In this document: piece after piece, positions 7,301-64,000 of the stretch
How the letters are laid out: each line of letters begins with the position of its first letter
Numbering within the stretch: position 1 is the first letter of the stretch
DNA from: Haliclystus octoradiatus
Lineage: Eukaryota; Cnidaria; Staurozoa; Stauromedusae; Haliclystidae
Reading direction: 5' to 3'
Assembly: GCA_916610825.1 (NCBI GenBank)
Contig: OU744447.1
Coordinates: forward strand, 38,167,171 to 38,231,170
DNA: 64,000 bases
Notes under the pieces: model-generated
Told to the model about the DNA's origin: nothing
What the model saw: only the letters and a program-made list of their open reading frames with translations
The model's database searches: none
Program-made: the position numbers and the translations under genes

Positions 7301-8383
7301 TCAGTTTATTTGCTTGAATGTAAGAACTTAAAAAGCACAGATGTTGGAGCACTCTCAGGTAAGTCTTTATCATTTGTCATTGAATCAAGGATTCCTCGAT
7401 TCTCTGTATCTCAGATATCATAATTCTATCAAGATTGTTATTTTATTTCGATTGTTAACTAGACGCATCACACAAGCTCTGTCGTCAGCTATATGTGCAT
7501 ATACCACCCCTTTGGAAACAGTCTATGAACGTTAGATGGCTCAATTTTCACGTAGACAGTTTGAAATATATTATGTCATGGAAAGCATTCCATTTATATA
7601 TTATTGAACTAATCCATATACGACTCAAGAAATTTTTTTTGTAAAATATTCATGAACAGCTTGTAAAGAATGTTTGTAAAGTTAATGAAGTTTGTGAACA
7701 GTTTTATGAACTCGAAAAATTTCTTAGCAGGGTGTTCATTAATCTTAATAGTTCATTAGAAAGTTCATTAATAGTTCATGAATTGTTTGTGAAAAGTTCA
7801 CGAAACGATCATGAACTCATTAAGCAACAAGGTCTGACAAAAGGTTTAGCCTCCCTTCTGGAATCATCTCTAGAGGCATTTAAACATTTTCTTCAGAATT
7901 TATTTGTTGATGTTTGACCAATGAATCATAAAATATCAAATCTGAATTTACTTTTAGCCTTCTGGAATCTAGGATTGTACGGTTTCTACTGTTGTTTCAC
8001 TCTTGGCAGCAACAACAAGTGGTTTAAAAAATGGTTGATATTATTTTTTCACAGATCCCTTTGTCAGAATTACTGTTTACATTAATAAGAAGAGAGTAAA
8101 GCGGCGTAAATCACGCGTCATCAAACAGAGTTTAGATCCATATTATAACGAACAATACCATTTTAAAATTTCACCAGCTGATATTGAATTAACAACAGTT
8201 GAATGCCTTGTAATGGACTATGATTTAATTGGAGCAGCAGATGTTATTGGCCAGGTAAAGATTGGAGCGTTTACCTATGGTCCACAGTTAAGACAATGGT
8301 GTGATATGTTAAAATTTCCAAGGCGGCCATGTGCACAATGGCATATGCTAAGAGCGAAGCCAAAGAAAGGAGAAGAAGATTAA
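4388..8383 (+). CDS. Synaptotagmin, C2A-C2B part (N-terminus outside window)
   Basis: Four exons join in frame: 4388-4548, 5674-5907, 7226-7358 and 8055-8383 (stop TAA), giving about 285 residues. Synaptotagmins are membrane-anchored calcium sensors that couple calcium to SNARE-driven vesicle fusion. C2A begins with [17 protein letters not shown]. Calcium-site aspartates are present in loop 1 ([10 protein letters not shown]) and loop 3 ([10 protein letters not shown]). C2B starts at the [11 protein letters not shown] strand, has a basic stretch ([10 protein letters not shown]) that normally binds acidic lipids, keeps its loop aspartates ([21 protein letters not shown]), and ends with QWHML, the WHXL motif of synaptotagmin C2B domains. 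All ten expected calcium-binding aspartates appear to be kept, so both domains should bind calcium. The signal/transmembrane and linker exons are missing and probably lie upstream of position 1. The paralogue cannot be fixed without a tree. Introns 1-2 carry transposon relics. Confidence 0.9.
4912..5188. mobile_element. hAT-type MITE in synaptotagmin intron 1
   Basis: This 277-bp element carries degraded CAGAGCCATCTATTTACAAG-type inverted ends: the left starts CAGAACTATC and the right ends GATGGCTCTG. Both continue into GAGTTGGGAC / TCCCAACTCT. The flanks are an 8-bp duplication, CCAAGGGC versus CCTAGGGC (7/8). Eight-base duplications and CAG-type ends are typical of hAT elements. Related copies lie at 8718-8953 and 46487-47169. 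Confidence 0.8.
5530..5640 (+). mobile_element. 3' tail of a non-LTR retrotransposon
   Basis: The tail GGCTGTATGTAAGTG...CCTTTATTTGCC...TGACAAAATATATCATATC ends in an ATCAT-type repeat. It matches the 3' end of the longer copy at 6195-6735 (GGCTGTATGTAAGTGG...CCCTTTATTTGCCCATC...). It is 5'-truncated and has no coding part. Confidence 0.6.
6195..6735 (+). mobile_element. 5'-truncated non-LTR retrotransposon, end of ORF2 plus 3' UTR
   Basis: One frame around 6390-6537 reads [20 protein letters not shown] and on to a stop. This is the WNxLP-like C-terminal signature that ends the reverse-transcriptase ORF of many CR1/L2/RTE-like elements. Upstream, the related frame around 6290-6400 is shifted, so the copy is broken. 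The 3' UTR ends in a CATCTCATATCACATCATATC simple tail. It lies in synaptotagmin intron 2, about 0.6 kb from a second, shorter tail of the same family. Confidence 0.65.
7640..7805. repeat. GTTCATGAA-type repeat cluster
   Basis: Repeated words ATTCATGAACAG, GTTCATTAATAG, GTTCATGAATTG and similar fill this stretch of synaptotagmin intron 3. The short ORF that crosses it consists of repeat sequence and is not a gene. Confidence 0.6.
7829..7995. repeat. Dispersed repeat with GTCTGACAAAAGG end
   Basis: The sequence GGTCTGACAAAAGG, then TTGTTGATGTTTGACCAATG, then TAGCCTTCTGGAATCTAGGA matches copies at 56538-56715 and about 60400-60575. The 56.5-kb copy ends CTACTTTTGTCTGACC, an inverted copy of its start, so the family is probably a small DNA transposon with inverted ends. 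Confidence 0.55.
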
Positions 8384-32680: not shown

Positions 32681-33870
32681 GATTTGCCTCTCACATTCAT
32701 TATTTCACTGCTATTCGAAATGAAGTAGGACTCGTATAAATCAGAACAATCAGGCCATGCTTATTTAATAAACAAGTAAAAACGTCACTCAAATCAAATA
32801 CCGGGGGAATAGGTACCCCTCAATATTTGAACGTCACCGTGTACGAAGAATTGATTTATAACGATGAAAAAATATTTAAATCATTCATTTAGTCAAATCA
32901 TAGTACTGTATATAAAGGTCAAATGGTCAAATCATAAACAAAGTTCTGCCAAATCATGATTTCCCGCCTTTTTTCTCTCGTTTTGCCTCTTTTACATATC
33001 TTGAATTTCAGAATGAGTTTCATGATTCTCGTGCTCTTTCATTTTTTAAACTATCAAAATGGCGTTCTAAATGCGGAGAATTTCCATCGAAATTGGAAAC
33101 ATTGGATTTTACGTCGTGTTTATCAATACCTACCTTGTCTGTATTTAGAAAGGTATAAAATAAAATGGTTATATGGTGATTCAATAAAAGAATAATAAAG
33201 ATGGTAAGTTATAAAATGCAAGATAAAATTACGACACTTGCTTCAAAAGTCAATGTGTATTTTAAGCTTTTCTTCAGTCTGAGTTTTCAACTTTTCACTA
33301 GGCAAAGCTAAGCTAAGCTTACATACGCGAAGGTTTACCGCAGTTTAATAACACTAAACCGTTAAAAGGTATTGTTCATCCAAGCCTTGACTGGCTCCAA
33401 GTGGACCAAGTCCCGCTTACTTCGATGTGCCGAGATTCGATGGTTGGTAAGCGGGCCTTGTGTCCTTTGTCAACTGTTGGGCCCAACGCCGGCTTGTATG
33501 ATTTCATTTTTGTCTAAATTTTACGTCTTCAAAAGATGAAATAATCGGGGGTTTACATGGCGTCAAGTTATGGATAAAAACATCCACCTTTAAAGAGCTG
33601 ATCTGAACTAAATAATCATGGAAGTTATGTCATTCTCTTATAGAACACGGATAAAATTATGAAATGCGTGGCTGGAATTCTAGCTGCAAAAATGATTGCG
33701 TTGTCAAGATCTTGCCCGCAAACAGCAAATTTTCCAGTGTGGCACTCCTGCTCTTGATATTTTATCATTGGTGTGCCAATCTGCAAATAATGGCAACCTC
33801 GACAAGATCTTGAGCTCAAACCAAACTGAATCTCAGGCGAGAACCACAGGGTAATTCCATTGTGACTGAC

Positions 33871-33874
33871 CTAC
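33871..33874. repeat. Left target-site duplication CTAC
   Basis: CTAC abuts the first base of the left inverted repeat. An identical CTAC at 41572-41575 abuts the last base of the right inverted repeat. Confidence 0.85.
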
Positions 33875-34719
33875 GGGTCATTCCATGTGAAATCGGCACT
33901 TTCTCGCCACCCCCTCGTCAAATTTAACAAAAACATATGTGCAAGTACAACTCGATGAGCTGAGTTCAGAAATGTAACTTTTATCGAAAAATTTGCAACA
34001 GTGTCAATTTTATAGCACTTTAAAGTTTCCGAAAATGGTGTGAAAATCGTATTTTGTGCTTCATTTAAAACGGTGATATCTTCGCCATTTCTTATTATAA
34101 ATTAAAGAATTAAAACGTCTGCAATACTTGAATAATTAATCTTTTCAAATATCGTAATTTTAATTCCGTAGAATCTATTTTAACTACCTAAAAAGTCAAA
34201 ATAAAACTTCGAAAGAACATACCTGAAAAACCTATTAATTCATTCCGATGAAAAATACATAAAAAGTTGTGTTCTGTGTAGTAGATTATCGCTGTGTAGG
34301 TCATTCTGATGCGAGATTGCGATCCGCCCTGCTTTTTTACATTTTGTGTTCAAAAAGCAATATTTTCGTTTTCAGCTGGAGTCTTTCCGAGTTGATCAAA
34401 TCGATGTCACAAGAACGCTAAGTGACTGATTCACACCTTTCGGTTTGCTCTGCTCGAATTATTTTTAGATCGCTCAACTCACAGTTCGCAAGTTATTGAT
34501 GATTAATTCAATGACCATTTGTCTATTTATACCTCATTCATAAACGTATGTGATTTATTCATTTGCCGGTCTATTGAATCTTTCAAACTTTTCTATATTT
34601 CTATTTTTTACGGCTTTTATGAAATGACTATTAAACGGACAACACAAAAAGAACATTGAACAGTTATTCTATAAAAAGCGATTTATTTCAAGAGATTGCT
34701 AATATTATTTGTTGTCATT
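33875..34719 (+). repeat. Left terminal inverted repeat of the 7.7-kb transposon
   Basis: 845 bases that are the reverse complement of 40732-41571 with few differences (e.g. one extra T near 34711). The homology stops just after GTTGTCAT. It contains no ORF. Confidence 0.9.
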
Positions 34720-34909
34720 AAAAAGAAGCCAGAAAGGTCGGATATCGACGTTAAATGTTAGTATATATTTTTATTGGTAATACATCCATATTAGTAGTTA
34801 TAATACTGATGTACAGCTGTAGTTAAAAAGAACCCTCGAAGCGCCTAGAACATGAAGCTATAGGCACTATATTTATATATATTAATGCCATTATGATGAT
34901 TATTATATA

Positions 34910-36051
34910 TTATTTTGAAATTGCTTTATTTAAATTTTTTATTTCGAAAAGTATTTCTATATTAGTTTCATTCAGTTTCTCTACGGCCGCTATTACCAGT
35001 TGAGTGCATTCGTCTCTTTTTGATCTTTTCTTGATACGGAAACCACTGTCCTCAGTCGATGATCGTTTTCTTGGCGTGCTGGTGGTGCTTGGTGAATGTT
35101 TTTCAAATTCTGAAAAAGTACGGAGGAATGCAAAAATATTATAGTTGAACATAATGGGGAAACCTGAGGACAAATAATGATAATGAGGATATTTTGTCAA
35201 CTATTATACCAGTAGAATATACTCATTTTCCAAATTATGAAATGTTATTATCTTGTAAATTTTGTCTTGGGTATGTAAAAGCATTTACTAGCCTGCGTGC
35301 AGACTCAAAATAGAACTTCTATAAAGTGTAGACTTTATACACTTTATAGAAGTTTTGTTTTAGATAGTCTGCACGCAGGCTAAGCATTTACCACTCAGTA
35401 GATAAAATAATTTGCAAGTCCTCGTTTCATATTTGGTATTTATAGCCTTCTAGAACGTTACATACTAGATGTTTTGAATGGCCTTTTAGGATAACAACAT
35501 GAATAGTAAAATCATTTACCTGAAACATAGGTCTCATCATGATCGTTTCCAGTTTTCGAATCCAACGCTATAAACGCTCCGCCTGGCCCTGCATTGACTT
35601 GGCATGACAACTCATCGTCGCTATCATTGGTTTTAGCAACCTGACTCCATTGTGTATTGTAGATATGAGGTGATTTAGAACTTTCACCTACATATTTTGT
35701 AGCATTCGGGAAATATCTGTCAATTCGAGCTTTAACAAAATGGAAGCCTTTTGCCATTGCTTCTCGTTCATGCAGTAAGCCATCTAGCCATTTTCTCTCC
35801 ATTTCCTTCGACAGCTCTACATATTCGGCCATGAAAAATGGGTATGCAGGTCCGAACGTTTTCGGATATTGAAGTGCCATGCTATGTCGGGCTATGCTGC
35901 AAAAATCATAATATTCTTTTTCCGACATACAATCTGTTGCTGACGTGTCTTTATTGGTCAGCCTATCGATGACAGCCCGTAGATCTATATCCATATCAGA
36001 ATGCCATTGGAATATTTTACTGTTTGAGATTTCTCCTGTTGTTGAATTCAT
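34910..36051 (-). CDS. Transposon accessory protein, unknown function (2 exons)
   Basis: Exon 1 is 36051-35520 and exon 2 is 35109-34910 (stop TAA), joined with donor CAG|GTAAAT and acceptor TTTTTCAG to give about 243 residues. I do not recognise the family. Exon 1 is acidic to neutral with a helical stretch (KEMERKWLDGLLHEREAMAK). Exon 2 holds a two-part basic cluster (PRKRSS...RIKKRSKRDE) that fits a nuclear localisation signal, then a short predicted helix. No zinc finger, transmembrane segment or catalytic motif is visible. A hairpin MITE (35289-35382) sits in its intron and would be removed by splicing. Lying inside the inverted repeats, opposite the transposase, suggests a helper role in transposition, for example DNA binding; that is inference. 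A downstream shared promoter in 36052-37802 is likely. Confidence 0.75.
35289..35382. mobile_element. TAGCCTGC hairpin MITE, copy 2, nested in the transposon
   Basis: A 94-bp hairpin, TAGCCTGCGTGCAGACT... to ...AGTCTGCACGCAGGCTA, with the arm CTTCTATAAAGTGTA paired to TACACTTTATAGAAG. An exact 9-bp duplication AGCATTTAC flanks it (35280-35288, 35383-35391). It entered after the large element formed, in the intron of the minus-strand gene. Confidence 0.9.
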
Positions 36052-37802
36052 TTTGTTTTATACGAACAGATGACTGAGTAACTGGCTCTACATAAGGTAC
36101 ATAGGCTCTGCATATAATAATCGTAAACTCACACCCATTAAGCCCTCAAAGTTAACAAGCCTGTAAAAGCTGGATGTCTAGGTCACAGGGGTGCACACTT
36201 CCGACCTTTACGCTAGCAGCTAGAGATGGAATTTTTACTTTCATGAGGTCTAGTCTGGTCAGTCTGGTCCGGTTTTGCTTCCGGATGGTCTAAACAACAC
36301 CACGACGAGGACAATAACGCTGTTCCCAGTATACAGTAGGCTAGACCTGGACGAGACTATCGAAAATAGTTACTTTAGTTTTGAAAAACGAGAAACAATT
36401 ATCGAGTTCTTTAATATTCCTTAATACTACGCATGATATCATCCCCCAGCTAAAGGGTTCATGTTCCAACTTTCGACACAGTTGAGTCTCTTGTTAGGAC
36501 TTAAGCTCAGATCAAAAGATATACTGCTAGCTTTGCAGTTAAATAAATATATACATATTTGTGAAACGTTGTCTTACTGATCGAACATAGGGCTCACTGC
36601 AATATATAGCAGAGCTCTAATAATAGCCAGAGAATCAGACAGTCATATTTGCTGCTTGAAGTTTCAAGCCGAGGCGATCATCAGGCAATCTATTCAATAT
36701 ATTCATAATCGGCCCATAATCTGATTGTATATTCAATCAGATTTTTAATAGATTAAAAAGATTGCCTGATGATCGTGTCGACGTGAAACGTCAAGTAGCA
36801 TATATGACTGTCTGATTCTCTGACTATTATTATATATATCAGTTATACTGTAGAGACTGTAGAAGACATTGTGCTATCGCAAACAAAGTTGTAAATTCAA
36901 GATATCAAAGATTAATGGCTTTCATTATTAAAAATAATCAAAAACATGTTTTAGTGAAACACGGACGGAACTAAAATATGTGCAGGAGTCTGTTTTATTT
37001 TGTCTGTCTGTGTCTGTCGCCGGCAACGATAATAAAATAGATATTAATAATTAGTCGTCGTAATCAGGGCATAAATTTCATCGGCTAACAATCAATTCAA
37101 TAAATTTCCGCTACACATGAATAATCAGAAACAAAAGTCGTGACAAACGTCAAGCAAGCATCGTCAGACCGGATTCTAAACAAATCATATAATGCATGTT
37201 TGTTACGCCCATTGCGCCTTTGTCTCAAATATAAATCGCAAGGCTTGTAGTTCACACCAACTTTAATAAACATGAATTTGTATAGATTGATAAACCAAAA
37301 TATATATGTCAAATATGCCGCCAGCAACTTTGTAATCAAAAGTTAAACATTTTTGTAAAAACACCGTACACGTAAAAAAGTAAACAAATTAAAAATGAAC
37401 TTTGATATTTGTTACTTGATTGAGATTTACTTAAACTATATTGTATTGTATTAAAGGTCAAGGACGGAAATTGGCTAGCCTGGTTCGGTTTGACAATTTG
37501 GTTGATGCTGTGAGAAACAAGATAGATGCTGCATAAATTCTATCCGCTTCCGAAATTGCAAACAATTTAAGGCTGGCATATTTATAGACGCTTGAATAGA
37601 GACTGATTTCTGATTGTCTAGTCATATAATATTAATTAGTTGTATTCATTTCCATGCCGATGTTGTCTAACTGCATGATTGATTTTCACGTGGGAATAAA
37701 TAGAGTGACATTCGATGCTTACGCTGATGTGTTAAGTAAGTTGTCGTTGGTTGAAATTCAGTAAATGATTATATTATATGCCGCTATATATATGTTTTCA
37801 TA
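36052..37802. other. Central spacer of the 7.7-kb transposon
   Basis: Lies between the two divergent transposon genes and so probably holds their promoters. It contains a repeat foldback at 36560-36850 (GAGAATCAGACAGTCATAT...ATGACTGTCTGATTCTC, with inner arms ATCATCAGGCAATCT / AGATTGCCTGATGAT), related in part to 28005-28205. No convincing ORF was seen. Confidence 0.6.
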
Positions 37803-40529
37803 ATGGAAGCCAAATCAAGATTATTAAGTTTGAATAAAAAACATAACAATTTACGATGCTGTGACCCGTTTAATTGCCACAGAAAGGCAATTTCAAAGCG
37901 TGTTTCTATGGTTACCGAAAATTACGCATCTCATGGTGTTACAATTGGTAAGAGCGTTTGCTATACATGTTTGGGAAAGCTATCAAAACCGACTGAAACA
38001 TCAGGTACAGAAAGTGAAGAGTCAAACAGTGAAACATCAAACAATGAAGAACATTTAAAAAGTAGCAGTAATGATGATAATGATGATGATTACGTTGATG
38101 ACACTGAGGATGGCTCCCAAAACTTTGAAGACTTCAATGAATCAATCGAGAGTGGTTTGGGCGTGTCACCTGTCCAGCGAAAAAGACTCAGAGAATCAAA
38201 ACGATATGCCAAGGACAAACTGCAGCGATTACACAACCAGCTGACAGAAAAATTTCAGGAGCATACGAGTCATAAAATTACCAGCGAAGAAACCAGTAAC
38301 TCAGACTTCAATTATACTGACGGGATTGAAGTGCTAGAGCAACTGAAGAGTAGATTTGCTGGGTCCATTTCAAAGAGTGAAAAGGTATGTACGTTTGACA
38401 GTATGTGGTATTTATTTTCCTCTGATGATAATATTAGCAATAACAGCCAATCTTCATAACACAATTACACACGTAAGCCTTATTTATAATTAGTAGTAAA
38501 ATCAGACTATGGTAGATTGCAATTTGTCTCGATTAATTGAAAATATGGCATATTTTTTACCAACTCACTTATTGGGTCGTATTTAGTTTCAGAAATACTT
38601 TTGTTAAATGTAATATTGTATCTATTTCATTTACCTTTATGCCAATAACATACTGTTTTATATTTTTAGATTCGAATTCTAACGGCACTACCAAAATCAT
38701 GGAAAATTTCTCAAATTGTTGCATTTGGTGCAACAAAGCACATGGCTACGGTAGCAAAAACGCTGGCAAAGGAAAATGGCATCCTGTCTGTACCAAAGGC
38801 AAGAGCAAGTGAATTTTCGTCTGAAATTGTCTCGATGGTTGAAAGTTTTTATCGAAGTGAAGAAGTATCGCGTACAATGCCAGGCAAGAAAGACTGCGTC
38901 TCAGTGAATATTAATGGTGTTAAAGAAACCAGACAGAAACATCTCGTCTTGTGCAACTTACAAGAAATATATGAATTGTTTACAGTCGAAAATCCCACGG
39001 TAAAGATTTCTTTTTCTAAATTTGCACAATTAAGACCCAAAGAGTGCATACTTGCAGGTGCAAGTGGTACACACTCTGTTTGTGTGTGTAGTATCCACCA
39101 AAATGTTATATTAATGATAGATGGTGTCGGACTGAAAGGACTAAAGTATACATTAGGAGAAATTAATTATAACATTGATGATTATCATGATTGTATAAAA
39201 CTGATTATATGTTCGACAGAAACGGATGATTGCTACTTAGGCAAATGCAAGGATTGCCCGGGAGTAGATTTACTACACGATATTATTGAGAAGCATTATG
39301 CGGATAAAGCAGTGGAGAATGTTGAGTTTCAACAATGGACTTCTACTGATCGCTGTAATTTGATTCGAGAAAACATGTCTGTAGATGATTTTTTAAATTA
39401 TTTCTTAACAAAATTAGTTTCTCTAAAACGGCATTCATTTATTGCCAAAAAGCAGAACGCGTTTTGTAAATTGCGAAAAGAAAACCTAATCGTTGGCGAA
39501 ATTTTAGTGGTGTGCGATTTTGCTGAGAATTATTCCTTTGTTATCCAGGATGAAGTCCAAGGATTTCATTGGAATAATTCTCAGGCCACCTTGCACCCAT
39601 GCGTTTGTTACTACAAAAATAACTTGAATAAATTGATGCATGTGGATTTTGTAGCAGTGTCAGATTGCTTGACGCATGACACTGTTGCAGTCCACATGTA
39701 TCAAAAAAGGCTTATTAAATTTTTAGAAGATTTCTTTGGAAAATTGCCTTCAAAAATGTTATATTTTTCGGATGGCTGCGCAGGCCAATATAAAAATTGT
39801 AAAAATTTTTATAATTTAGCCTATCACAAATCTGATTTCAATGTTGATGCGGAGTGGCATTTTTTTGCTACTTCTCACGGAAAAGGGCCTTGCGATGGCG
39901 TTGGAGGGGCTTTGAAGAGACTTGCAGCAAGAGCTAGTCTTCAACGCCCCCTCAACGACCAAATTATGACAGCTCGTCAACTGTTTGATTTTGGTATTAA
40001 AACCATGCCAGATATCAAGTTTTCCTTTTTTACAAAAGACGAATGAGCAGACGAAGAAAAAGATTTGTCAGATCGTTTTAAAATTGCCAAAACCATTGTT
40101 GGAACCCGCAGCCTTCATTGCTTTATCCCTCCGTCAATTTCTTCTATGGAAGTAAAAGATATATCATCTGCAACTGTATCAAGAACTGTATATTTGGAAA
40201 GTTTAGAAAGTGTCCGAGCGCATGATGACAATGATCTCACAATTGAAAACGTGCATGGTTTTATTGCATTACATTATTTTTCAAAATGGTACATCGGTTG
40301 TGTCCTCTACATCGACGAAGAAAATGATGATGCAACGGTGAGTTGTTTGACACCTCCTGGTCCAACAGGCTCATTTCTGTATCCAAGCATTCCCGATGTG
40401 ATAAAAGTAAACATAGCAAACATTATCTGCCTCATAGATCCAACCACGGCAACTGGTAGGACATATACTCTGTCTGAGGCAGATGTCACAAAGGTTACAA
40501 AATTATTTAATACCAATTACAATACATAA
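37803..40529 (+). CDS. Transposase-like protein, one in-frame TGA
   Basis: Exon 1 is 37803-38384 (donor AAG|GTATGT) and exon 2 is 38670-40529 (acceptor TTTTTAG). Translation gives 652 residues to TGA at 40044-40046; the same frame then stays open for 160 more codons to TAA. The N-terminus has paired cysteines (CCDPFNCH...CYTC) suggesting zinc binding, then an acidic Ser/Asp-rich linker and a basic helix. Exon 2 starts IRILTALPKSWKISQI, a helix-turn-helix-like segment, and continues with a PGKKDCVSVNINGVK region and a CVCSIHQN motif. The likely RNase-H-like core has Asp in VVCDFAENYS (39516), Asp in YFSDGCAGQYKN (39771) and Glu/Asp in AEWHFFATSHGKGPCDG, a D-about 84-D-about 26-E spacing. The TGA is either a recent nonsense change or a readthrough site; the downstream part (FIPPSISS..., HYFSKWYIG, LCLIDP-like) still looks like protein. 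Confidence 0.85.
40044..40046 (+). other. In-frame TGA in the transposase frame
   Basis: The codon order is ACA AAA GAC GAA TGA GCA GAC GAA GAA. Translation resumes in the same frame with acidic residues and stays open for 160 codons. One base change (for example from CGA) would make the stop; no frame change is involved. Confidence 0.85.
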
Positions 40530-40731
40530 TATCAATAATAAGTTTATTTCATAGTTCAATTAATTAAAATTCATGAAACAATAATATAACTATAATCAGT
40601 AGGCTATACTGTTGATATTACAGAAGTTTATTAAGTAATATACATTTTATTGTACTGTATTGTAAATATTCATAGTACACATTTTTTGTTAAATGCCTTG
40701 TAAAAAAGTACGTAAATTTCTAAAACTTTAT

Positions 40732-41571
40732 GACAACAATAATATTAGCAATCTCTTGAAATAAATCGCTTTTATAGAATAACTGTTCAATGTTCTTTTT
40801 GTGTTGTCCGTTTAATAGTCATTTCATAAAAGCCGTAAAAAATTGAAATATAGAAAAGTTTGAAAGATTCAATAGACCGGCAAATGAATAAATCACATAC
40901 GTTTATGAATGAGGTATAAATAGACAAATGGTCATTGAATTAATCATCAATAACTTGCGAACTGTGAGTTGAGCGATCTAAAAATAATTCGAGCAGAGCA
41001 AACCGAAAGGTGTGAATCAGTCACTTAGCGTTCTTGTGACATCGATTTGATCAACTCGGAAAGACTCCAGCTGAAAACGAAAATATTGCTTTTTGAACAC
41101 AAAATGTAAAAAAGCAGGGCGGATCGCAATCTCGCATCAGAATGACCTACACAGCGATAATCTACTACACAGAACACAACTTTTTATGTATTTTTTATCG
41201 GAATGAATTAATAGGTTTTTCAGGTATGTTCTTTCGAAGTTTTATTTTGACTTTTTAGGTAGTTAAAATAGATTCTACGGAATTAAAATTACGATATTTG
41301 AAAAGATTAATTATTCAAGTATTGCAGACGTTTTAATTCTTTAATTTATAATCAGAAATGGCGAATATATCACCGTTTTAAATGAAGCACAAAATACGAT
41401 TTTCACACCATTTTCGGAAACTTTAAAGTGCTTTAAAATTGACACTGTTGCAAATTTTTCGATAAAAGTTACATTTCTGAACTCAGCTCATCGAGTTGTA
41501 CTTGCACATATGTTTTTGTTAAATTTGACGAGGGGGTGGCGAGAAAGTGCCGATTTCACATGGAATGACCC
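40732..41571 (-). repeat. Right terminal inverted repeat of the 7.7-kb transposon
   Basis: 840 bases, the reverse complement of 33875-34719, ending in CATGGAATGACCC. The CTAC duplication follows at 41572-41575. Confidence 0.9.
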
Positions 41572-41575
41572 CTAC

Positions 41576-43400
41576 GCAACAGAGCATGTTTTGGTCAAGG
41601 GCATTGACTTAAAAGCAAACTTTGATAAATTTTTGTTCCCTAGAGACTAAAAACATCAAAAAGACTCTGTTTGACTGAACAAATAAAAAATTCCTGCAAA
41701 ATCATATAAATTAGAAGAAGTTTAAGGCTGTGACTGACCCACACGGATGCTCGTCATTTTATCAATCAGACACAAACATTTGCAAAATTCTATGTAGTCT
41801 TATCACAAATTAAAACAAAATCATTGTTTTCCAATACTTTAAAGATGTAATATTTATGTAAGTATATAATCAAGTTGACTTGAAATTCTTAAACAATTAA
41901 CGGCAATAAACCAATATGTTTCGTGACTGACCCTTCAACGATTTGTGACTCCACCCACGAGTCCCGAAAGCATTCGTGACTGACCTATACGTTTTCTTCA
42001 AAAAACACCAATAATACGCTGTTATGAAAATTTTTCTCAACTAAATTGTAATAAATAGCCATATGGTAATGTAAAATGGTTGTAGTATTTATTCAAACTG
42101 TACCACGAAAGCATCATTTAATCTAAACAACGAGGGTAATTGAAAATCTTTTCTCCTCCGAAAGCGACTAAATTGAAAACACGCCTTCTAATAAGAATGA
42201 GCACGTGGTGTGAAGTGTCTAATTCCAGCGAATATGCGATCGTCCGGCTTCTTTGTTTTTGTGACCCTTGCGGTATTTGCTTTGAAATACCGACCCTTGC
42301 GCTTGCATCGTAAAAAGCCGTAGCAAGTTTTCTATGAGTCAATCACATCGATTTAAAGTAGGTGGTTTACAAGAATGCCAATATTTCCCGCCAAAAATGC
42401 TAATTAGTAGCAAACTAACTTGCATATGAAAGGATTTTTTAATCAAACGTCACGCTGTGGAGTGAACAAAACTTTCTGGACTCTTTCGCTGGTGCATGAA
42501 CGCGCTTCAAGTGAATCTTAACTGTAACATAAATGTAATTTCGAGGTAAAATACACTCGTAATTCAAACTTTATTAATTCAATTCTACATAATAGGCCAT
42601 ATTAAATTGATTTTCATATTTTTTAAAGTTGAATAACCCAATCAAAATCGCGAAATTTGGAATTTTAGATTGTTATGATTCTCACAAATTTTCGAACGGC
42701 CACCTCGACGCGCTCTAGAAAACGTCGTTTTTCTCATAAATAAAATTTATAATATTAATAAAACATTCATATTATGATAGTAAAAGTAATTAATTGTAAG
42801 GAAAACAATAACGTTTTGTCTGGATTCCATGCATTATTTATGACGCTTGCAAAATTTTGTGGTTTCACTTCTGATGGAATTGCCCCACATATTCCTATGT
42901 AGGAATTGAAATAACTTTAATGCAGTAAATAAATCTACGGCAGGAATTTCTTTGTTCCTTTGTTTTGAAAGTTTGTCACACAGAGTCGAACTTCAACTAA
43001 AAGCAGAACAGAAACTTTTATAAATTATTTGTAATTAAAATTCTCAGAAAGACTTGCCTGTTAGTCCAAGTAAATTATTCTGATGGCAAACGAACAAGCA
43101 AGCCATAATAGTTTGGAATGACCTGCAAAAGCTGTGTTTATTATTAGATACACACAACCGTGACTCCATGCTTCTGACCGAGGATTTTGTCAATTTTGCT
43201 CCCGAAAAAAAAACATTATTTGGATATTGAGGAGCATCGGTTCTGAAATACTTTTACAATTTCACAATTTTGCAAATTTTCATCTCAAAATTATTCAAAA
43301 TATGAGTGAAATCTTCTCCTTATATTCATTAGAGATATCTTCTCCTTTTTATGTTTGTTTGGCCTCAGCTGATAAGTTACATGTTTTTACTTATCTCCAG
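41576..43400. other. Region upstream of the first recognised PRPF40 exon
   Basis: No coding sequence could be supported here. The phrase GTGACTGACC occurs at about 41731, 41923 and 41974 and also left of the transposon at 33863. The 5' exon and promoter of the PRPF40 gene should lie here or further left, but no start could be chosen with confidence. Open reading frames at 42118-42342 and 43227-43400 have no family signature. Confidence 0.5.

Positions 43401-64000
<20,600 letters not shown>

Follow-up and report, generated by a model that had tools for sequence, protein, structure and literature searches.

The window analysed in this study, a stretch of 64,000 nucleotides of the Haliclystus octoradiatus genome (assembly GCA_916610825.1, contig OU744447.1), contains a 7.7-kb DNA transposon with long terminal inverted repeats (TIRs) and two divergent spliced genes, one for a transposase and one, hereafter called gene 2, for a smaller second protein. 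The features of the element are as follows (positions are those of the window).

33875..41571, no strand: whole transposon, 7,697 bp, delimited by its inverted repeats and by ends common to five further full-length copies
33871..33874, no strand: left target-site duplication (TSD), CTAC, 4 bp, exact match to the right copy
41572..41575, no strand: right TSD, CTAC, 4 bp, exact match to the left copy
33875..34721, plus strand: left TIR from end-to-end alignment, its outer ~140 bp being overall the best conserved between related families
40727..41571, minus strand: right TIR, 99.06% identical to the left one
35520..36051, minus strand: gene 2 exon 1, holding a conserved domain of about 110 residues
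35110..35519, minus strand: gene 2 intron, GT...AG, 410 nt, containing an internal inverted repeat
34910..35109, minus strand: gene 2 exon 2, with a basic stretch and the C-terminal tail
37803..38384, plus strand: transposase exon 1, 194 codons, with a Cys/His-rich start followed by an acidic linker
38385..38669, plus strand: transposase intron, GT...AG, 285 nt, splice sites read from the sequence
38670..40529, plus strand: transposase exon 2 with a candidate DDD triad (D at 39516-39518, 39771-39773 and 39894-39896)
40044-40046, plus strand: premature in-frame stop in the window transposase, codon 653 of 814

The initial annotation had described this locus as a recent DNA transposon of 7.7 kb with near-identical inverted repeats of about 840 bp, an exact CTAC duplication and two divergent spliced genes, and each of these points was borne out. 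The ends at 33875 and 41571 could be confirmed to the base, with CTAC on both sides (33871-33874 and 41572-41575), the end-to-end alignment of the TIRs spans 847 columns at 99.06% identity with 6 mismatches (an inverted-repeat search gave arms of 805 nt at 99% and 36 nt at 100%), and both genes have GT-AG introns in an arrangement that is confirmed across the copies. The sequence GGGTCATTCCATGTGAAATCGGCA is present at both termini, 33875 and 41571, giving a GGG start and a CCC end. With up to 3 mismatches allowed, the outermost 22 bp occur twice in the window, i.e., at the two ends of the element, and 0 times in 100 dinucleotide shuffles.

A search of the genome (261.9 Mb, 33 contigs) with the left TIR resulted in at least 56 matches; the copy counts derived from it are lower bounds because only 40 of the 165 first-look candidates were scored. 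Inspection of 20 regions revealed five additional full-length near-identical copies (L025-L029), one truncated copy without the gene 2 half of the element (L030) and one rearranged copy that keeps the DNA of gene 2 exon 2 and not that of exon 1 (L031), the remaining regions being more diverged relatives of the window element. The initial annotation had advised aligning all copies to look for differing ends or for flanks without duplications; all six full-length copies, window included, turned out to have the same GGG...CCC ends and exact 4-bp TSDs, which are all different (CTAC, AAGG, TATT, AATT, AGTC and GTTC). Pairwise substitutions among these six copies amount to 0.14-0.87% over 7,639-7,703 sites. 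Duplications of 4 bp are also present in the relatives L046 (TATT) and L047 (GACC); in a decayed relative at C1:9311952-9322324, no TSD was found and the GGG is gone at one end. With its near-identical copies, common ends and 4-bp TSDs, the window element is a young, recently mobile cut-and-paste DNA transposon.

The insertion site itself lies in an older repeat, which the transposon has split into two pieces.

33849..33874, plus strand: left piece, the first 26 bp of the GGG...CCC repeat entered by the transposon
41576..42885, plus strand: right piece; the repeat has its own TSD, CACA, at 33845-33848 and 42886-42889

Without the insert, this repeat is 1,336 bp long, starts with GGGTAATTCC and ends with CCC. 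Comparison of the flanks, joined without the element, with the genome yielded at least 41 rows of matches (a lower bound, 40 of 48 candidates having been scored), two of which are the window's own halves. All 39 non-self rows cross the empty junction as judged from row lengths, 31 of them matching the length of the query part exactly and the others within 10 bases; these rows are not all separate copies, as two of them adjoin on C1. The left end of the older repeat is common to 30 of the 39 rows (starting at query position 58-61), and its right end to 31 of the 39 non-self rows of the right-end search (stopping at 144-147, which corresponds to 42883-42886). Therefore, the 7.7-kb element has inserted into another GGG...CCC repeat carrying a 4-bp TSD.

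Across the six full-length copies, the left and right TIRs are separated by 2 fixed differences in 870 columns. The TIRs of L047 are 95.5% identical to each other over 683 nt and ~66% identical to those of the window element, and those of L046 are 94.5% identical over 1,136 columns; L045 retains GGGTCAGTCC at one end, the other end being lost. Because left and right differ so little within an element, compared with the ~66% between L047 and the window element, the two TIRs of an element seem to evolve together, judging from these sequences. Among nine related TIRs, which were picked for matching the window TIR and include L041 in part only, conservation in the outer 140 bp is 0.79-0.93 in six 20-bp blocks and 0.74 in the seventh, and in the 27 inner blocks it is 0.39-0.79 except for two blocks at 0.84 and 0.86. 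The recognition sites of these long TIRs probably sit in the outer part.

Other inverted repeats were observed in and near the element. One lies between the two genes (36594-36856, 117-nt arms, 79%) and another in the gene 2 intron (about 35289-35382, about 97 columns, 82-85%); since both are present in the five other full-length copies too, they represent either hairpins nested within the element or pieces of the element itself. A second GGGTCATTCCATGGAGAATCTGCA terminus, which belongs to a related family, is located at window position 49599, and a search for its partner end found none. Numerous GGGTCATTCCATGGGGAATCTGCA ends of this related family occur in the genome, and several form pairs that face each other at a distance of about 0.5-2.8 kb.

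According to the gene model read from the sequence, the two transposase exons join to encode 813 residues. The coding frame is open in two of the six full-length copies, as the window copy has the premature stop at codon 653, a point absent from the initial annotation, and three further copies have frameshifts or other stops; the splice sites are intact in all six. A Cys/His-rich start of the form C-x(5,6)-H ... C-x2-C is recognisable on visual inspection in the window copy as well as in L045 and L047. The candidate aspartates reside in DFAEN, SDG and CDG, with 84 and 40 residues between them in the window copy, and the D...D...D arrangement is retained, as a pattern only, in L047, L046 and the 31%-identical L053. 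L045 and L046 have transposases with 46-52% identity to that of the window in the pieces matched, and L047 has an open exon 2 of 618 residues. Comparison of exon 2 between the window and L047 over 458 codons revealed 90, 62 and 215 differences at the three codon positions, corresponding to a dN/dS of 0.095 at a dS of 1.8, which is near saturation. The genome search with the transposase returned 105 rows (E <= 0.001), which represent pieces and not loci. The relative L053 (L053:34-2307) is an open 758-residue transposase with a different N terminus, and a second site, C1:15284666, agrees with it in identity and in frame length.

No match to a named family was obtained for the transposase in Pfam, NCBIfam or PHROGs, no relatives were found in IMG/VR viral contigs or prokaryote genomes, and its motif strings retrieved nothing concerning transposons from the literature. 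AlphaFold2 runs on the single sequences of gene 2 exon 1 and transposase exon 2 gave unusable models (mean pLDDT 38.4 and 32.9).

Gene 2, as read from its two exons, encodes 243 residues in all and is open in all six full-length copies. The initial annotation had reported a second gene with no recognisable domain, in agreement with our searches of Pfam, NCBIfam, PHROGs and PDB sequences, none of which gave a significant match; the best domain matches, CLZ (E 0.018, L045 exon 2) and GeBP-like DBD (E 0.026, L045 exon 1), are both below the cut-off. A PDB profile match to PHIKZ029 (E 0.014) was judged to be chance, and a C-terminal leucine zipper was dropped as a candidate, its heptads not exceeding random expectation (801 and 1112 of 5000 shuffles). 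Relatives were not found in IMG/VR viral contigs, and no description of this protein was found in the open-licence literature on Sola and on second or accessory proteins, which does not prove it undescribed. Over 169 codons, gene 2 of the window and that of the older relative L032 differ at 50, 43 and 80 sites of the three codon positions (dN/dS 0.20, with dS near saturation at 1.6), and on this comparison of sequences gene 2 looks conserved against that one relative. The dS between the window and L045 is saturated. Close pairs gave a dN/dS of 0.46 (L045-L046), 0.48 (L048-L049) and 1.45 (L048-L050); because these pairs rest on 6-14 differences each, selection on gene 2 is seen only in the older comparison.

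The genome search with gene 2 returned 21 rows at E <= 1 (again pieces and not loci) and demonstrated that gene 2 is not unique to the window element, as relatives occur in other transposons. A head-to-head arrangement with a related transposase was observed in L032 (C1), L045 (C7) and L046 (C4); L034 and L042 show a decayed version of it. No gene 2 was detected in L047, whose transposase exon 2 is open and which has TIRs and the TSD GACC, and there was no gene 2 match in the rearranged L043 or near the L053-type transposases listed in the transposase search. A broken gene 2 relative in L052 adjoins a frame that by eye resembles a Gypsy-type retrotransposon.

Two other kinds of transposase were found beside relatives of gene 2. 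In L048, L049 and L050, which lie on three contigs and have most of an 8.5-kb stretch in common (95-99% identity per aligned piece), the gene 2 relative is located upstream of a different transposase, which follows 1.7-2.6 kb downstream on the same strand. This transposase has sub-cut-off Pfam matches to DUF4218 (E 0.039) and DUF1258 (E 0.045), both of which occur in EnSpm-type proteins. It also contains the strings CERC and HYTDH, which by eye agree with the C(2)C and H(3-4)H motifs that PMC12730594 describes in EnSpm and related groups. On these motif strings, we refer to it as EnSpm/CACTA-like; this likeness to EnSpm/CACTA (CMCT group) concerns only the gene 2 carriers L048-L050, a neighbour system, and not the window element. 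The second additional kind is an unclassified, third transposase in L051 and L054, which are 89% identical over 2.5 kb and 92% over 0.9 kb; the common stretch includes gene 2 and, in divergent orientation, the first exon of this transposase, the second exon being present in L051 only. At L051:3605-4718 and L051:5576-6001 there are the unclassified protein adjoining the gene 2 relative (HWDGKKV...CFDTTASSTG) and a second frame on the other strand; both L051 reading frames look transposase-like. The transposases of the window and L045 have no significant match at these loci, with best E-values of 0.017 (an 18-residue piece of the acidic linker, L049) and 0.30 (L051).

Between the transposon types, pairwise identity of gene 2 is 23-40%. 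With a profile built from window-type gene 2 sequences (window, L032, L045 and L052), E-values are 1.7e-11 to 1e-10 for the EnSpm-like set and 2.3e-7 for the third-type gene 2. In the reverse searches, the window gene 2 scores E 1e-7 with the EnSpm-like profile, and the third-type profile detects L045 at 1.1e-5 but the window gene 2 no better than at 0.012. These profile searches (Z = 1e6) used a database of 3,447 six-frame segments of the loci analysed, and they therefore test relationship and are no survey. No gene 2 match was found near the other listed sites of the third transposase (best C4:32065595, 81% identical).

The presence of the gene 2 family beside two other kinds of transposase therefore suggests a helper gene that is passed between different mobile elements. 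DDD transposases of this class have an RNase H fold. In the mechanism that we infer, the 813-residue transposase would recognise the outer part of the long TIRs, pair the ends, cut at the GGG ends and join the element to the target with a 4-bp stagger, and the gene 2 product would be a small accessory protein that aids its transposase in end binding, complex assembly or nuclear entry. In this respect, gene 2 would work like ORF1 of PIF/Harbinger transposons. That ORF1 is Myb-like, whereas no Myb match was obtained for the window element in Pfam and its TSD has 4 bp. In both systems, the element encodes a transposase and, separately, a second protein, and in PIF/Harbinger both ORF1 and the transposase are required, as stated in PMC2836001.

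Gene 2 probably encodes an accessory protein of transposition that has been exchanged between lineages of transposons; in this genome, three or more kinds of DNA transposon may have kept or exchanged it as a module. The sharing of one accessory gene between superfamilies is an already known kind of event in the relevant passages of two sources: Fanzor1 is carried by several transposon superfamilies, Sola2 included (PMC3627910), and among the DNA transposons of fungi, 11 lineages carry TET/JBP genes (PMC12730594). Gene 2 resembles Fanzor1 as a single accessory protein in different superfamilies, but Fanzor has a C4 zinc-finger (OrfB_Zn_ribbon) motif, whereas gene 2 has no significant family match. 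It resembles TET/JBP as an accessory gene exchanged between superfamilies; the difference is that no enzyme domain was detected in gene 2 and that our data come from one genome and not from a survey. We consider the chances evenly balanced that gene 2 represents a previously unnamed accessory family, found in a head-to-head or upstream position next to three or more different transposases (Sola-like, EnSpm/CACTA-like and the third type) and exchanged as a module.

The main rival to a role as transposition helper is that gene 2 encodes an anti-silencing or regulatory protein, retained for escape from host repression as may apply to the transposon-borne TET/JBP of fungi. The occurrence of its relatives beside three transposase types, as described for TET/JBP in that part of PMC12730594, and the otherwise complete relative L047 without a detected gene 2 are consistent with such a role; the short conserved core of gene 2 and the absence of an enzymatic domain in the searches of Pfam, NCBIfam, PHROGs and PDB sequences argue against it, and we regard it as possible but rather unlikely.

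As to the transposase, the element most likely belongs to the Sola superfamily, an assignment by general features from the published description and not by sequence homology. The Sola entry in PMC10741241 lists a DDD transposase, a 4-bp TSD, a size of mostly 2-9 kb and TIRs of 11-1124 bp. The Sola-like guess of the initial annotation agrees with every feature checked against that description: 4-bp TSDs in all six full-length copies as well as L046 and L047, three candidate aspartates in the DDD pattern (pattern only), and an element of 7,697 bp and a TIR of 847 columns, both within the published ranges. Its remark that the inverted repeats are unusually long was not supported for Sola, because TIRs of ~850 bp fall within the 11-1124 bp of PMC10741241 and are thus not unusual if the element is a Sola. 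The passages on Sola in PMC10741241 and PMC3627910 differ from our element in that they mention no gene-2-like second gene. Kolobok, described as TTAA-specific in the pertinent part of PMC9587614, is excluded because the six TSDs differ and none is TTAA, and PIF/Harbinger was rejected on its TSD, 3 bp in the corresponding part of PMC2213677 and 4 bp here. It is unlikely that the transposase belongs instead to another or an undescribed superfamily sharing the 4-bp TSD: the general nature of the features behind the Sola assignment and the lack of a named-family match in Pfam, NCBIfam and PHROGs would fit such an origin, but the DDD pattern, TSD, size and TIR length all fit Sola as outlined in PMC10741241, and the exclusion of Kolobok also speaks against it. 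Finally, it is quite improbable that the likeness of gene 2 among the three transposon types is due to chance, or to mere adjacency to EnSpm-like and third-type transposases outside their elements, since the low pairwise identity, the lack of complete ends for both kinds of element here and the third transposase found elsewhere without a nearby gene 2 match stand against profile E-values as low as 1.7e-11 with matches in both directions, three EnSpm-like loci on three contigs that share gene 2 and transposase at 95-99% per piece over most of 8.5 kb, and two third-type loci that are 89-92% identical in gene 2 and transposase exon 1 and agree in the order of the two.

Taken together, it is likely that the window element is a young DDD-type cut-and-paste transposon, most likely of the Sola superfamily, whose gene 2 is a transposition helper kept or exchanged between kinds of transposon. 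Many DNA transposons of eukaryotes are regarded as machines with a single protein. Exceptions to this view appear in the relevant parts of three sources, namely the two-protein PIF/Harbinger transposons (PMC2836001) and the passengers Fanzor1 (PMC3627910) and TET/JBP (PMC12730594). If our reading is true, this small conserved protein, found next to transposases of three types, would provide a new and testable case of a shared helper or passenger, and the window family, with its recent copies, defined ends, gene 2 open in six of six copies and transposase open in two of six, would be suited to such testing.
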